DNA of 64,000 nt from Novosphingobium sp. RL4 (lineage in GTDB: Bacteria; Pseudomonadota; Alphaproteobacteria; Sphingomonadales; Sphingomonadaceae): positions 186,001-250,000 of the forward strand of contig NZ_CP141945.1 in the NCBI RefSeq assembly GCF_035658495.1, written 5' to 3'. Within the stretch, counting starts at the first letter, position 1, and each line of letters starts with the position of its first letter. The translations under genes were made by a program, and so were the position numbers. This document shows, in pieces, positions 11,744-16,211 of this stretch. Below the pieces are notes generated by a model. It was not told the origin of the DNA. It saw nothing but the letters and a program-made list of their open reading frames with translations, and made no database searches.

Positions 11744-13330
11744 ATGAAGGCGAATGAGGAAACCCCGGGACCGGGCGGTGAGCGCCGCTTCCGGGCCTTC
11801 CTCAGCTATAGTCACGCGGACGAGCATTTCGCACGCAAGCTTCATCAATGGCTGGAATCCTATCGTATTCCGCCAAGGTTGGTCGGCTCGGCAACACCGA
11901 TGGGCCATGTGCCGCCGCGCCTCTCGCCCATCTTCCGGGATCGCGCGGAACTCCCGGCGGCATCCAGCCTTGACGAGGAAGTGCGCCAGGCGCTCTCCCA
12001 GTCCGACGCGCTGCTCGTGCTGTGCTCTCCGGCAGCGAGGGCTTCGCGCTGGGTCGATGCGGAAATCGCGCTCTTTCGCAGTCTCCACCCCGATCGGCCG
12101 ATCATCGCGGCTCTGGTCCTGGGCGATCCGGCAGTCAGTTTTCCCTCCGCGCTTCTCGAACCCGATGCGGAAGGCGTGGTGCGGGAGCCGATTGCAGCCG
12201 ATTTCCGGCCCGACCACGATGGTGCCCGCCTTGCCCGCCTGAAGATCGTCGCCGGCCTGACCGGCGTGGCGCTCGACCAGATTATCCAGCGCGATGCCCA
12301 GAGACAATTGCGCCGTGTGATCGCCATCACGCTGCTTACGGTTCTGCTTACCCTATCGATGGCCCTCATGCTGATCTTCGCGTTGCGCGCGCGGATTGAA
12401 GCCGAGCATCAACGTCAGCAGGCCGAGGGATTGATAGAATTCATGTTGACCGACCTCAGGCAGAGGCTGGAAGGCGTCGGCCGGCTGGACGTGCTCCAGT
12501 CCGTTAACAAACGCGCACTAGACTATTACGCCGACCAGTCCGACCTCAAGACCCTGCCGGCCGACTCGCTCGAACGCCGCGCCCGAATTCTGCACGCCAT
12601 GGGAGAGGACGACCACAAGCGTGGTGACGTAGCCGGAGCGCTGGCGAAGTTCAGCGAAGCGCACCGTGTGACCGGCGCCCTGCTGGCGGCAAGCCCGCAG
12701 GATCCGCCACGGCTCTTCGCCCATGCCCAGAGCGAGTTCTGGTTGGGCTATGTCGATTTCATCGACTACCGGTATGAAAAGGCCCTGCCGCGTTTCATCG
12801 CCTATCGCGGACTTGCCGAGCAATTGGTCAGGCTTGTCCCGGGCGATCAGTCCTACTGGCGCGAACTGGCCTATGCCCAGGGCAACATCTGCACGATCGC
12901 GGTCACGCGGCGCGGCCCGGAAAAGCAGCTCGCGGAATGCAGCGATGCGCTGGCCACGATGGAGCGCGTGGGCAAGATGGTCCCCGGCGATCTCAGCGTC
13001 AAGGCGGACATCGCCAACCGCCATGCCTGGATGGCGGATGCCCTGCGCGTGCAGGGCAGGAACGTCGACGCGCTGCATGAACGCGCGCAGCAGGCGGCGA
13101 TCGTGCAGCGCCTGCTCAAGGACGATCCGAAGAACGTCAGCTACCTCCAGGACTGGATGCTGGCGCGATATTCGATGTCGCAATTGCTCAATTCGCTGGG
13201 CGAGCGGCACAGAGCCGAGAAAATGCGAGAGGATGCTCGTCGCGATGTCGAGCGATTGATCGAATCGGATCCCGAGAACAACGATTGGCGCTTGTGGAAG
13301 GCCAAGCTGACCAAACCCCTCGATAAATAG
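11744..13330 (+). CDS. TIR-domain protein with membrane helix and TPR-like tail
   Basis: 528 residues from the ATG that leaves the TIR domain 17 residues from the N-terminus. The TIR domain (about 16-135) shows FRAFLSYSHADEHFARKL, IFRDRAELPAASSLDEEV, ALLVLCSPAARAS and RWVDAEIALF; Glu107 is at the place of the catalytic glutamate of NAD-cleaving TIR domains (the WxxxE pattern). One membrane helix follows (about 191-214), then a charged stalk (RIEAEHQRQQAEGL), and an alpha-helical TPR-like region to the end. Bacterial TIR proteins cleave NAD or make NAD-derived signals, often in phage defence. First gene of an operon with two more genes 9 and 18 bases apart. Whether it is an NADase, a signal synthase or a scaffold cannot be told from sequence. 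Confidence 0.85.
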   Translation: MKANEETPGPGGERRFRAFLSYSHADEHFARKLHQWLESYRIPPRLVGSATPMGHVPPRLSPIFRDRAELPAASSLDEEVRQALSQSDALLVLCSPAARASRWVDAEIALFRSLHPDRPIIAALVLGDPAVSFPSALLEPDAEGVVREPIAADFRPDHDGARLARLKIVAGLTGVALDQIIQRDAQRQLRRVIAITLLTVLLTLSMALMLIFALRARIEAEHQRQQAEGLIEFMLTDLRQRLEGVGRLDVLQSVNKRALDYYADQSDLKTLPADSLERRARILHAMGEDDHKRGDVAGALAKFSEAHRVTGALLAASPQDPPRLFAHAQSEFWLGYVDFIDYRYEKALPRFIAYRGLAEQLVRLVPGDQSYWRELAYAQGNICTIAVTRRGPEKQLAECSDALATMERVGKMVPGDLSVKADIANRHAWMADALRVQGRNVDALHERAQQAAIVQRLLKDDPKNVSYLQDWMLARYSMSQLLNSLGERHRAEKMREDARRDVERLIESDPENNDWRLWKAKLTKPLDK

Positions 13331-13339
13331 GAACCCATC

Positions 13340-13816
13340 ATGTCGACCCTGAACTACATGCAATACGGTCTGGCGAACCAGCTCGACCTCGAACTGACGG
13401 GCGAAGAGCCGATCGTCTTCAACGTCATCCTCAAGGCCGAAGAAGGACGCATCGTCCTGGAATATGACCAGCCCGCCGCACCGGGCCAAGACTATATCGC
13501 GATCACCTGCGACAGCGTCGTCGACATCACGCTGGTCGGGGACCAGCTCTGGTTTTCCAAGGAATTCGACGCCATCACCACCAAGGAACCCCTCTCGTCC
13601 TTCTATGGCGGGCTTGAGTACAGCGCCTATGACGAGAAGCTCGACCGGTACAAGGCGGTCCGCTTCAACGCGCGCTTCAATCAAGGTGGAAAGTACGGCA
13701 CGCGCCACCGCTTCAACATCAACGTGGACCTGCTGCAGGACGTAAATGCCTGCGAACCGCGCTGGATCGGACTGACCATCGATCCCGACATCAAGAACCC
13801 GCCTCCGCAGGTCTGA
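13340..13816 (+). CDS. Uncharacterised protein of TIR-SLOG operon
   Basis: 158 residues, no signal peptide, no membrane segment, acidic overall. I do not recognise a family. The alternation of hydrophobic and polar residues (FNVILKAEEGRIVLEYD, YIAITCDSVVDITLVGDQLWF) suggests a mostly beta protein, and the C-terminal half has FNINVDLLQD and WIGLTIDPDIKNPPP. It begins 9 bases after the TIR gene stop with an AGGA ribosome site, and the third gene follows after 18 bases, so it is surely part of the operon. By position it could be a ligand-binding or adaptor partner of the flanking TIR and SLOG-like proteins; that is a guess. Confidence 0.75.
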   Translation: MSTLNYMQYGLANQLDLELTGEEPIVFNVILKAEEGRIVLEYDQPAAPGQDYIAITCDSVVDITLVGDQLWFSKEFDAITTKEPLSSFYGGLEYSAYDEKLDRYKAVRFNARFNQGGKYGTRHRFNINVDLLQDVNACEPRWIGLTIDPDIKNPPPQV

Positions 13817-13834
13817 ATAGCGGATGATCGATTC

Positions 13835-15310
13835 GTGATCCTTTCGGTACTGGCCCAGATCCGGCAGACGGCACGCGCGGGGGATATCCTCCGCGCGTGG
13901 CGCATGTTCGAAAGTGCGGGGCTACTGGCCTCGCAGGCGCCGGATGCTCTCAGCCTCAAGGGCCGGCTGCTCAAGGACCGCGGCCTGCGCAGCTTGGGCG
14001 ACGAGCGTAGGCAGCTTCTGGACCAGGCGCAGGCCGCCTACATGCAGGCGGCGGGCGAGCGGCGGGCCACCTATCCGCTCATCAACGCGGCGACCATCGC
14101 CTTGCTCAACGGCAAGACGCAGGAGGCATCTCTCGTCGCAACAAGAGTGCTGGAACTGCTGGAAAGCGGCGACCATGAACCGGAAACGCGCTACTGGATC
14201 GGCGCGACGGCTGCCGAGGGCCACTTGCTGCTTGGCAATACAGAGGCAAGCCGCACCGCGCTCGAACTGGCAATCGCGGCGGCGCCCGAGGCATGGGAAG
14301 ATCACGCGGTCACGCTGCGTCAGTTCCGGCAGATACTCGAAAGGATCGGGGCGCCTAGCGATCTCTTCGATCATCTCCGCCCGCCGCCGAGCCTCTATTT
14401 CAGCGGCATCATCGGCCTGCCGGGAGATGAAAACGAAATCCGCGAGAAAGTCGGCGTCCTGCTCGACGATATCCGACCGGGCGCGGTTTTCGGCGCGCTT
14501 GCGGCAGGATCAGATATTGTCATCGCCGAAATGGCACAGGCAAGGGGCGCTCGGCTCAACATCGTGCTGCCGCTCTCCCTGCCCGCTTTTCGCCATATCT
14601 CCGTCTCCCAGTACGGCGGCGATTGGGCCGAGCGGTTCGACCGGCTCATCGAGGCTGCCGACCTGGTGGAAACGCTTGACCGGACGAACTGCCTCTCTGC
14701 TCCCGCGATCCTGAACGGATCACGCGTCGCGATGGGGCTGGCGCTGCGACGATCGAGAATGCTCGCAACGCGGGCCATCGCACTCCATGTCGGCCGGGAA
14801 ACGGACAGGATCGCACAAGCCGAAGCGGAATGGCGGGCCCAGGGGCTGGAAATCCATGACCTCACCCTGGACTACTCCGTCCCGGCGAGCGGAGCCGGGT
14901 TCGGCAGAGCAGTCGATCGCACCGTCCTTGCCTCGACACGTCCGTTACCGCCTTGTTCCGACCCGTCGGTAGGGGCACCGGAACTGACGGAGGAAGGGTT
15001 CTCGATCCTTCGGTTCGGCGATCCCGTCATGGCCATGGATCACGCGGCCGCTATATTGCACATGGCTCCCGAGAGCCGGCTTGGGTTCGATTGCCGCCCC
15101 TGCGCGCCGGAATCCGGTGTGGAGGAAGATGCCGAACTTGCCATAGTGCTCGCACGGGCGGCGCCCGCGGGAAGCATTTGCGCGCCTTGGCCGCAGATCG
15201 CCGTCATAGACCTGCTCGCCCCCGATTACCGTTTCGAGGCTGCCGGAGACATCGTCACCCCATTGGGCGATTTTGCGATAGGCCTGTTCAGGCTGCTTTC
15301 GTCGGCCTGA
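13835..15310 (+). CDS. TPR protein with SLOG/Rossmann-like nucleotide-binding region
   Basis: 491 residues from a GTG start. Residues 1-180 are helical repeats of TPR type (similar to the TRAFs-binding/DUF4071 helical region). From about residue 187 the pattern changes to an alpha/beta fold: LYFSGIIGLPG, ENEIREKVGVLLDDI, VFGALAAGSDIVIAEMAQARG and LNIVLPLSLPAFRHISV. The AAG-SD-x3-AE element and the following LNIVLPL strand are what SLOG/LOG-like Rossmann domains show; these bind nucleotides, including NAD-derived signals in Thoeris ThsA. The last 150 residues have a second alpha/beta part (RAIALHVGRETDRI). Third gene of the TIR operon. Homology to SLOG is my reading of the pattern and needs a profile search. 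Confidence 0.7.
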   Translation: MILSVLAQIRQTARAGDILRAWRMFESAGLLASQAPDALSLKGRLLKDRGLRSLGDERRQLLDQAQAAYMQAAGERRATYPLINAATIALLNGKTQEASLVATRVLELLESGDHEPETRYWIGATAAEGHLLLGNTEASRTALELAIAAAPEAWEDHAVTLRQFRQILERIGAPSDLFDHLRPPPSLYFSGIIGLPGDENEIREKVGVLLDDIRPGAVFGALAAGSDIVIAEMAQARGARLNIVLPLSLPAFRHISVSQYGGDWAERFDRLIEAADLVETLDRTNCLSAPAILNGSRVAMGLALRRSRMLATRAIALHVGRETDRIAQAEAEWRAQGLEIHDLTLDYSVPASGAGFGRAVDRTVLASTRPLPPCSDPSVGAPELTEEGFSILRFGDPVMAMDHAAAILHMAPESRLGFDCRPCAPESGVEEDAELAIVLARAAPAGSICAPWPQIAVIDLLAPDYRFEAAGDIVTPLGDFAIGLFRLLSSA

Positions 15311-15324
15311 ACAGGCGGCCGCGT

Positions 15325-15978
15325 TCAGCAGACCAGTTCATGGAGCATGCGGGGGGCGTGGATCACCAGTTGGCCTTCATCACGGCTGATGATGCCCCGC
15401 CGGATCAGCGCCGCGATCGCGCGCGATGCCGTCTCGCGAGTGGTATTGGCGCTTAGTGCCAGCGTAGTCACGCGTGGCGGAGGCGCGATCCGTTCCCTGC
15501 CATCCGCAAGGGCCAGCAATTCGGCATAGACGCGCCCGGCCGCGCTGTATGTCGTGCGGGCAACCATCCGGTCCAGCGCCCGATCGAGTTGCCTTGCCAA
15601 TAATCGAGCCATTCCGGCGCCAATTTCCGCATCTGCGGCCACAAGTTCGGCGATCTTTGTGGCTTCTGCGCGCAATAGGGTCGATTCTGCGAGAGTGCCG
15701 ATTTCCGCGCGATGTACGGTCGGAGCCGGATAGGCGCCGAAAAATTCGCCCGGGCCATGCTGGGCGAGTTGCTGACGCTGCCCTTCAAGGCCAAATGTCT
15801 CGATCCGAACCGCCCCATCGATCACCAGCCAGCAGTACTGCGAAGGCTCCCCCTGATGCGCGATGATCTCCTTGGCGCCGAGCAACTGCGGAATCAGGAC
15901 GCGCGAAAGCGACTCGGCCGATGACCGGCCGCATCGAAAAATCGCCCCGATTGCCTCGATTTGCTCTTCAATATCCAA
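15325..15978 (-). CDS. Crp/Fnr family transcriptional regulator
   Basis: 217 residues with an N-terminal cyclic-nucleotide-binding-type beta roll (about 20-125; GEPSQYCWLVIDGAVRIE, GPGEFFGAYPAPTVHRAEI) and a C-terminal Crp-type winged helix (about 140-205; LALSANTTRETASRAIAALI as recognition helix region). The phosphate-cassette region has R-A (HRAEIGT) but not the full FGE...RxAT of cAMP-binding Crp, so the ligand is open. There are no N-terminal cysteines of the FNR [4Fe-4S] type; C16 is isolated. It converges on the SLOG-like gene with only 14 bases between stops. It could regulate the TIR operon or be unrelated. Confidence 0.88.
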   Translation of the reverse strand: MDIEEQIEAIGAIFRCGRSSAESLSRVLIPQLLGAKEIIAHQGEPSQYCWLVIDGAVRIETFGLEGQRQQLAQHGPGEFFGAYPAPTVHRAEIGTLAESTLLRAEATKIAELVAADAEIGAGMARLLARQLDRALDRMVARTTYSAAGRVYAELLALADGRERIAPPPRVTTLALSANTTRETASRAIAALIRRGIISRDEGQLVIHAPRMLHELVC

Positions 15979-16084: not shown

Positions 16085-16211
16085 TGCGTGATCCGTGTCA
16101 CGCGGAATATGGATTCAATCCGTTAGAAAAGCCTTGCGACCCGAAGGCGGCTCCTAACCGAGCAGCCCCATTTCCTGGCCCGAAGGCTTCACGCCTTCGG
16201 GCCATTTTTTT
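16085..16211 (+). ncRNA. Candidate small RNA ending in orphan terminator
   Basis: There is no gene upstream on this strand that would need the strong terminator at 16177-16211: the next gene to the left on the plus strand ends at 15310, and the regulator in between is on the minus strand. The 100 bases before it fold locally (GCCTT 16131-16135 with AAGGC 16144-16148; GGCT...AGCC after it). This is the usual picture of an intergenic sRNA. The 5' end is a guess and I cannot assign a known Rfam family. Confidence 0.35.
16177..16211 (+). terminator. Strong intrinsic terminator without an upstream gene
   Basis: GGCCCGAAGGC and GCCTTCGGGCC form a perfect 11-bp stem around TTCAC, followed by A and seven T. 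The 3' arm could instead pair with an earlier copy of CCCGAAGGC at 16140-16148, so an alternative fold without the terminator is possible. Confidence 0.85.

Follow-up and report, generated by a model that had tools for sequence, protein, structure and literature searches.

A four-gene TIR/TPR-S signaling module of Sphingomonadaceae with a Crp-family regulator that was probably rewired from cAMP to another signal

TIR proteins connect bacterial immunity with nucleotide signals. In Thoeris, the TIR protein ThsB is paired with ThsA, a sensor-effector with a SLOG domain, and systems composed of TIR, TPR-S, and pNTSase1 proteins were reportedly predicted by Burroughs and Aravind in 2020. Here, we analyzed a stretch of 64,000 nucleotides (nt) from Novosphingobium sp. 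RL4 (hereafter, the window; C2:186001-250000, where C2 is a contig of 1.82 Mb in a genome of 5.45 Mb in two contigs). Pfam models for TIR, TPR-S (PF20308), and pNTSase1 (PF20301) matched together in one operon of the window, an arrangement that recurs at other loci. A first-pass annotation had described this operon as three forward-strand genes (11744-13330, 13340-13816, and 13835-15310) separated by gaps of 9 and 18 bases. These open reading frames (ORFs) hold, and the equal gene order in other Sphingomonadaceae loci indicates that the operon is not a product of chance. However, the unit does not end at 15310 as had been supposed, because a convergent Crp-like gene (15325-15978) and control sites belong to it. 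We consider, with a probability of roughly 0.6, that the locus is a four-gene TIR/TPR-S signaling module with its own Crp-family regulator, rewired from cyclic adenosine monophosphate (cAMP) to another signal. This reading is based on the computed gene content, a dead cyclase, a decayed ligand pocket, the constraint on an operator and a -10 element, and co-occurrence. The features of the window are as follows; other loci are denoted by L numbers.

11744..13330, + strand: gene 1, 528 amino acids (aa), with a TIR domain at residues ~19-126, a membrane helix from residue ~193, a TPR-like C-terminal half, and the catalytic Glu107 (Pfam, alignment).
12315..12332, + strand: intragenic Crp-type operator GTGTGATCGCCATCACGC, core 12317-12330, at codons 191-197 of gene 1.
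12353..12355, + strand: codon 204 (CTA), which contains the TA of a predicted -10 element; predicted transcription start at ~12365.
13340..13816, + strand: gene 2, pNTSase1 (PF20301), 158 aa, with a C-terminal IDPD..NP motif; fast-evolving.
13835..15310, + strand: gene 3, 491 aa, with TPR-S at residues 13-88 (TPR match to ~159), a Rossmann-like part at ~185-330, and a degenerate class III cyclase at ~361-491.
15325..15978, - strand: gene 4, Crp-like regulator with a cyclic nucleoside monophosphate (cNMP)-binding fold that has lost its phosphate-binding cassette, and a Crp helix-turn-helix (HTH) (Pfam).
16086..16103, no strand assigned: operator GCGTGATCCGTGTCACGC, between gene 4 and the candidate small RNA.
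16136..16211, + strand: candidate small RNA with the 5' end GCGACCCGAAGG and an intrinsic terminator at 16176-16204, followed by T7.

Relatives of gene 3, which starts with a GTG codon and matches the Pfam models TPR-S and MAP3K_TRAF_bd at its N-terminus, were present in 76 of the 298 Sphingomonadaceae genomes. In three of the four relatives tested, an adenylate/guanylate cyclase domain followed the TPR and Rossmann-like parts. PF00211 was reached at E 0.01 by 12 of the 25 gene 3 proteins in a representative alignment, with the window copy below this level, and the gene 3 cyclase profile matched solved class III cyclases. The catalytic signature D...WGD...RE was complete in 29 and broken (dead) in 45 of 74 gene 3 proteins (the window and its near copy L002 both counted). 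At the columns of the two metal-binding Asp and the transition-state Arg, the window protein has T, G, and V, that is, all three residues are lost, and its cyclase domain is ~50 residues shorter. When 28 short C-termini were compared with 29 intact cyclase domains in hhalign, the probability was 94.6 (E 6.5e-8); the controls (TPR-S, Rossmann-like, Crp, and gene 2) gave E values of 0.17 or worse. Judged from these alignments, the C-terminus of gene 3 is homologous to a class III nucleotide cyclase, with the catalytic residues gone.

In a tree of gene 3 with the cyclase columns excluded (71 rows; L002, L089, and L074 left out), dead-cyclase proteins formed one clade of 43 rows (support 100/100). 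Its sister was a pair with intact signatures, L100 and L123 (96/89), and both together were supported at 100/100. Rooted on the other 26 intact proteins, the tree suggests that the cyclase was lost once. Locus L123 carries a TIR-TPR gene, a marginal pNTSase1 (25.1 bits; cut-off, 25), a cyclase matching PF00211 at 5.2e-11, and Crp, and it is the stronger of the two intact loci because of its PF00211 and pNTSase1 matches.

Some gene 3 loci differ in arrangement. Loci L080, L081, L082, L092, L093, and L094 form a group with partly eroded cyclases. In the first three of these, gene 3 comes after a small secreted-looking gene, which we take to be UrcA-like. The TIR-TPR gene of this group lies beyond crp in L082, L093, and L094 and is not adjoining elsewhere, and operator cores are found ~580-960 nt before the gene 3 domain start. 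In L111, L120, and L122, an intact TPR-S cyclase is followed by a TIR-like gene and by genes that, by eye, resemble a Ser/Thr kinase and a PP2C phosphatase, an arrangement conserved in one genus.

The Rossmann-like domain of gene 3 is conserved among its relatives. This part had been described as Rossmann/SLOG-like in an operon shared with a TIR gene. The pairing of TIR with a TPR/Rossmann-like protein stands, whereas a SLOG domain, which may nonetheless be present, found no support: Pfam gave no SLOG, LOG, or STALD match to gene 3, nor to any of 35 copies of the Rossmann-like domain. No convincing sequence match to the domain was found in the PDB, and hhalign against 19 DprA and 21 LOG proteins yielded none, as did the positive control, LOG against DprA. 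YpsA as a third comparison was present in 0 of 150 genomes. The nucleotide-signaling context suggested in the first-pass annotation was corroborated by Pfam TPR-S ('Tetratricopeptide Repeats-Sensor'), pNTSase1, and the cyclase remnant, and its statement that no nuclease, Sir2, or pore is visible agrees with Pfam, which matched none of these in genes 1-4.

Gene 4, the Crp-like regulator, matches cNMP_binding (3.9e-12) and HTH_Crp_2 (1.3e-9). A Crp-like gene was convergent with and adjoining gene 3 in 36 of the 45 dead-cyclase loci and lay on the same strand in one more; among the 29 intact-cyclase loci, a convergent one was found once (L123). We then examined unlinked relatives in 20 chosen genomes. 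Six module genomes without an adjoining copy encoded an unlinked Crp-like relative (E 8.1e-41 to 2.9e-23), and in ten genomes lacking a dead-type gene 3, the search yielded nothing stronger than 1.6e-9. The phosphate-binding cassette (GE...R[ST]) was read individually in each protein, with an unrelated match (L109) dropped and groups defined by cyclase length. It reads FGAYPAPTVHRAEI in the window and FGEMAVLSAQSRT and FGELAALDSAPRS beside intact cyclases. The Glu and the Arg-Ser/Thr were both present beside two of the two intact cyclases (L100 and L123); beside partly eroded cyclases (>510 aa), the Glu was retained in 6/11 and the Arg-Ser/Thr in 0/11 proteins; and beside short cyclases, the values were 0/28 and 1/28. 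A full cNMP pocket was found beside none of the 39 dead cyclases (0/39). These patterns suggest that messenger synthesis and sensing decayed together, and this co-decay counts as one evolutionary event because the two intact loci form one clade.

Three further observations concern these genes. A Cys at position 12 of the window Crp-like protein (F-x-C motif) recurs in 39 of the 40 aligned Crp-like proteins with a residue there. A named near relative of the window, Novosphingobium sp. ST904 (L002), has a gene 2 that is 99% identical, and its gene 3 and crp-like gene appear interrupted relative to the near-identical window copy, which may be an effect of draft assembly. In L084, which belongs to the genus of the window, the TIR gene was called only as a 74-aa piece, with gene 3 and crp kept.

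Gene 2, which the first-pass annotation had left unrecognized, is a full-length match to PF20301 (E 2.9e-68). The Pfam name of this family, 'Predicted novel nucleotide synthetase', invites the alternative that gene 2 replaced the cyclase, with pNTSase1 making a new nucleotide sensed by the altered Crp-like protein. In keeping with this, the pNTSase1 matches, L123 apart, all lie beside dead cyclases, and the Crp-like pocket is changed where compared. Nevertheless, we regard such a replacement as quite unlikely. In an alignment of 18 sequences, all matching PF20301 at E 0.1, D148 and P149 were the only invariant residues, which is a poor fit to a catalytic site; because of this, the 'nucleotide synthetase' label comes without a visible one. 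Moreover, gene 2 had no convincing PDB match, and at the transitional locus L123, it coexists with an intact cyclase. An ORF was located between the TIR gene and gene 3 in 39 of the 41 loci examined, and a pNTSase1 profile built here matched 21 of these 39 middle ORFs; the remaining 18 are possible homologs. The IDPD..NP motif at the C-terminus is the sole near-constant part of this very fast-evolving protein and could serve as a docking tail. Structures predicted from single sequences for genes 2 and 3 (mean predicted local distance difference test scores, 32.7 and 41.6) were too poor for use.

The TIR part of gene 1 (residues 19-126) matched TIR_2 (E 6.5e-12) and ThsB_TIR (E 3.1e-10) in Pfam, with 40.8 bits against the ThsB-like TIR model PF08937 (cut-off, 21.2), and weak TPR matches were found toward the end of the protein. 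PADLOC returned weak TIR/ThsB matches only for gene 1 and no match for genes 2 and 3. Both the WxxxE glutamate and the membrane anchor described earlier are present, the former as residue 107 (103-WVDAE-107) and the latter as a hydrophobic segment at residues 193-211. The Trp and Glu were found in 50 of 51 TIR sequences, the remaining one being truncated, and a hydrophobic segment followed the TIR part in 50 of 51.

In the codons just before this membrane helix lies the operator core GTGA-N6-TCAC (12317-12330 in the window). We found the core in 38 of 50 TIR genes, namely, in 37 of 41 with a dead cyclase, one of eight with an intact cyclase (L123), and 0 of one without gene 3. All 38 genes whose peptide permits the core have it, compared with 6.5 expected from the codon usage of each gene, and 0 of 20,000 simulations reached 38 (window and L002 both counted). 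Synonymous sites were then scanned at 510 codon positions of 37 genes (median amino-acid identity, 42%; 30 clusters at 70%), with L002 set aside because it nearly duplicates the window. The third base of codon 204, which encodes Leu, Val, or Ile, was A in 36 of the 37 genes vs 4.6 expected. This codon ranked first of 510 in synonymous constraint, and the next three ranks were all in the operator. The T of the NTA codon is 30.5 nt from the operator center; for a class II Crp site centered at -41.5, the corresponding distance to the -10 box T is 29.5 nt, which is also what we read at the small-RNA promoters. The codon-usage test and the NTA result led us to abandon an initial view of the intragenic palindromes as a coincidence of the coding sequence. 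On this comparative evidence, the intragenic site is a conserved predicted promoter. Transcripts from such a promoter would cover the TPR half of gene 1 together with genes 2 and 3 and leave out the TIR-coding part. In 35 of the 37 genes, an ATG occurs 126 nt after the first base of the core, ~80 nt after the predicted start; one might guess that it starts a TPR-only protein, or the Met could just be a conserved residue of the full protein.

Two other explanations of the intragenic site deserve mention. It could be a roadblock or repressor site of the global Crp instead of a promoter of a dedicated regulator, since Crp-type palindromes are common in bacteria, and a single exact site is present somewhere in 11 of the 20 genomes that lack the dead-type module. 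We consider this unlikely, as the NTA codon seen in 36/37 genes, 36 nt past the first base of the core, fits a -10 box. Core and codon also go together: none of the five genes without an operator core that were looked at (L055, L082, L085, L108, and L109) has NTA at the codon 204 position, whereas L100, with one mismatch in the core, keeps CTA. In addition, the crp-like gene tracks the module in the 20 chosen genomes, and one of only two exact sites in the whole window genome lies beside the crp-like gene. Alternatively, synonymous conservation might reflect translation, with a slow codon before the membrane helix; the site does sit at the helix boundary, and CTA, ATA, and GTA are rare codons in these genes. 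This is very improbable, however, because the four most constrained codons of 510 (GTG,.TC, AC[GA], and NTA) make up an operator and a -10 box whose distance is close to that of class II sites, and nearly the same geometry exists outside any called gene, at the small RNA.

The operator was found by a palindrome search upstream of TIR genes with shuffled controls, in which the top palindrome, CGTGA-N6-TCACG, occurred in 6 of 44 upstream regions vs 0.05 expected. Exact FNR/FixK-type and Escherichia coli-type Crp consensus patterns were also tried and were absent from the 44; two looser patterns of the FNR/FixK or E. coli Crp type occurred in 6/44 and 2/44. The exact form GCGTGA-N6-TCACGC preceded TIR, gene 3, or crp in 18 of the 47 dead or transitional loci, including L123, where it precedes the operon, and preceded module genes in 0 of the 27 other intact-cyclase loci. 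In the window genome (5.45 Mb), the exact site before the crp-like gene is 16086-16103. Across 65 chosen genomes, we counted 62 exact sites in the 45 genomes whose gene 3 is dead-type or transitional, compared with 11 in the remaining 20; therefore, the motif is rare in all of these genomes, and its occurrences are concentrated at the module.

On the crp side of the window, a small RNA was predicted to start 48 nt after the first base of the operator core. In six loci (window, L050, L055, L067, L068, and L069), the crp-side core was followed by GCGACCCGA 48 or 49 nt after its first base, and then by an intrinsic terminator. The element was oriented away from crp in three loci and towards crp in three; because it points either way relative to crp, the crp-side operator seems to serve the RNA in these six loci. 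The terminator of the window RNA has a 12-pair stem, and two-sided changes were seen in 5 of 10 pairs of the terminator stems, although terminator-like sites as a class were not in excess over shuffles. A covariance model of the small RNA matched 81 of 169 family genomes at E 0.001 (rough calibration). Of 30 loci fetched, 26 were readable; 23 contained GCGACCCGA, and 7 contained the operator core, four module copies included. The candidate small-RNA family (window, L050, L055, L067-L069, and L180-L204) seems to be widespread in Sphingomonadaceae, mostly without a Crp operator. Rfam at the gathering threshold gave no match in the window or in eleven small-RNA loci.

Several observations weigh against a rewired module with a dedicated regulator. 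The single loss of the cyclase hangs on the outgroup root, and the pocket comparison rests on two intact loci of one clade. Of these, L100 has a cyclase that carries the signature but misses PF00211 at E 0.01, a middle ORF with no Pfam match, and a Crp-like gene that is distant and upstream. The intragenic core is missing from 12 of the 50 TIR genes, including those of the dead-cyclase loci L055, L082, L093, and L094 and that of L060, which has no gene 3; L055 lacks it despite a crp-side core and the small RNA. Similarly, 29 of the 47 dead or transitional loci have no exact operator upstream of a module gene. The intragenic TA is one base farther from its operator than that of the small-RNA promoter, which shows the textbook class II distance. 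Finally, the palindrome core coincides with codons of a V-x-x-[VI]-T peptide, and its conservation could be partly at the protein level, although the conservation of the NTA codon is not open to this objection.

With these points considered, we still favor the rewired module and propose the following course. In the ancestral circuit, a triggered membrane TIR enzyme would make a signal derived from nicotinamide adenine dinucleotide (NAD), and the TPR-S/Rossmann-like part of gene 3 would sense this signal and switch on the fused class III cyclase. The resulting cAMP (or cyclic guanosine monophosphate) would load the dedicated Crp, which would activate class II promoters. The window lineage appears to have lost both the cyclase and the cyclic-nucleotide pocket of Crp while keeping the genes and control sites; in that case, gene 3 must now act on the regulator by a route independent of cAMP, either through another nucleotide, from TIR or gene 2, or through direct contact. 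The most conserved candidate target of the regulator is the predicted intragenic promoter, which lies past the TIR-coding part of gene 1. Its activation would increase expression of the TPR half and of genes 2 and 3 with no additional TIR enzyme; in the window lineage, the Crp-like regulator may also act at the small RNA. In this messenger swap, a TIR-triggered circuit would have lost cAMP synthesis and sensing once and kept running on another signal, while its Crp-like regulator, by splitting the operon at the intragenic promoter, would induce the TPR half with genes 2 and 3 (possibly a brake or sensor arm) and the small RNA but not the TIR enzyme. We put this full scenario forward tentatively, at slightly under even odds. 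What we infer in it comprises NADase activity, the ligand, binding of these sites by the Crp-like protein, activation rather than repression, the biological role, and the brake role of the genes downstream of the intragenic promoter.

We also considered whether the module serves anti-phage abortive immunity like Thoeris; a messenger made by TIR would be sensed by gene 3, and NAD loss would damage the cell. The TIR, TPR-S, and pNTSase1 families were reportedly predicted by Burroughs and Aravind as parts of conflict systems, the sequence of gene 2 changes very rapidly, and the distribution is patchy: besides the gene 3 relatives noted above, pNTSase1 was found in 18 of the 298 Sphingomonadaceae genomes, in 2 of 385 genomes drawn from the class (both Sphingomonadaceae, one of them the window's own), and in 4 of 398 drawn from the phylum, all of the same order. 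Neighbors mostly differ between genera. On the other hand, gene 3 had no relatives on 72,556 plasmids or, in a one-pattern scan only, in viral contigs, and gene 1 had none in 50,697 phage records and nine partial matches on plasmids, none covering 80%. A mobile element or prophage origin found no support in these searches. Shared-flank clusters, all loci included, fell within genera in 44 of 53 cases and across genera in 9 of 53; a flank gene was common to another locus in 22 of the 44 dead loci, and the window locus shared none with other loci. The first-pass annotation had named a fixed, non-defense position across a genus as an argument against immunity, and this was found in part: positions are constant in several genera, with ordinary neighbors. 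In a flank survey of 91 proteins (one locus per genus and a few additions, with no baseline for the match count), the models RtcR, HerA, Cas1, Cas2, and mad3 each matched a single protein among the families listed (25 of 57). No dedicated effector beyond TIR was recognized in the module. An immune role is thus possible, but we lean against it. The locus fits a lineage-specific signaling module that was probably inherited mostly within genera, with an anti-phage role unproven. One locus of the flank survey was traced, L091, whose operon adjoins cas1 and cas2 matching type II CRISPR models.

The series of natural loci, from an intact cyclase with a cAMP-type Crp to a dead cyclase with an altered Crp, may reveal how a pathway swaps its messenger. 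If the predicted intragenic promoter is true, the cell would tune the TIR enzyme separately from its partners, and the candidate dedicated regulator would offer a handle on the trigger and role of pNTSase1/TPR-S systems. The TIR, TPR-S, and pNTSase1 families of the systems predicted by Burroughs and Aravind are all present here too. In the module analyzed here, they are accompanied by a Crp-like partner, a dead cyclase, an operator, a predicted intragenic promoter, and a candidate small RNA. Like Thoeris, the window encodes a TIR protein that matches ThsB_TIR, and it likely follows the same principle of a second protein that senses an NAD-derived signal; unlike Thoeris, no ThsA, SLOG, Sir2, nuclease, or pore was detected by Pfam, and a transcription factor is present instead. 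Gene 3 relatives resemble class III cyclases with N-terminal TPR-S in carrying PF00211 with an intact signature, whereas the window copy is without the metal Asp pair, the Arg, and ~50 residues. The regulator and its sites share with Crp/Fnr proteins and class II promoters the cNMP fold, the Crp HTH, GTGA-N6-TCAC, and a -10 element at or one base beyond the class II distance, but differ from them in that the window regulator has lost its cyclic-nucleotide pocket residues and the most conserved site is located inside a coding sequence.

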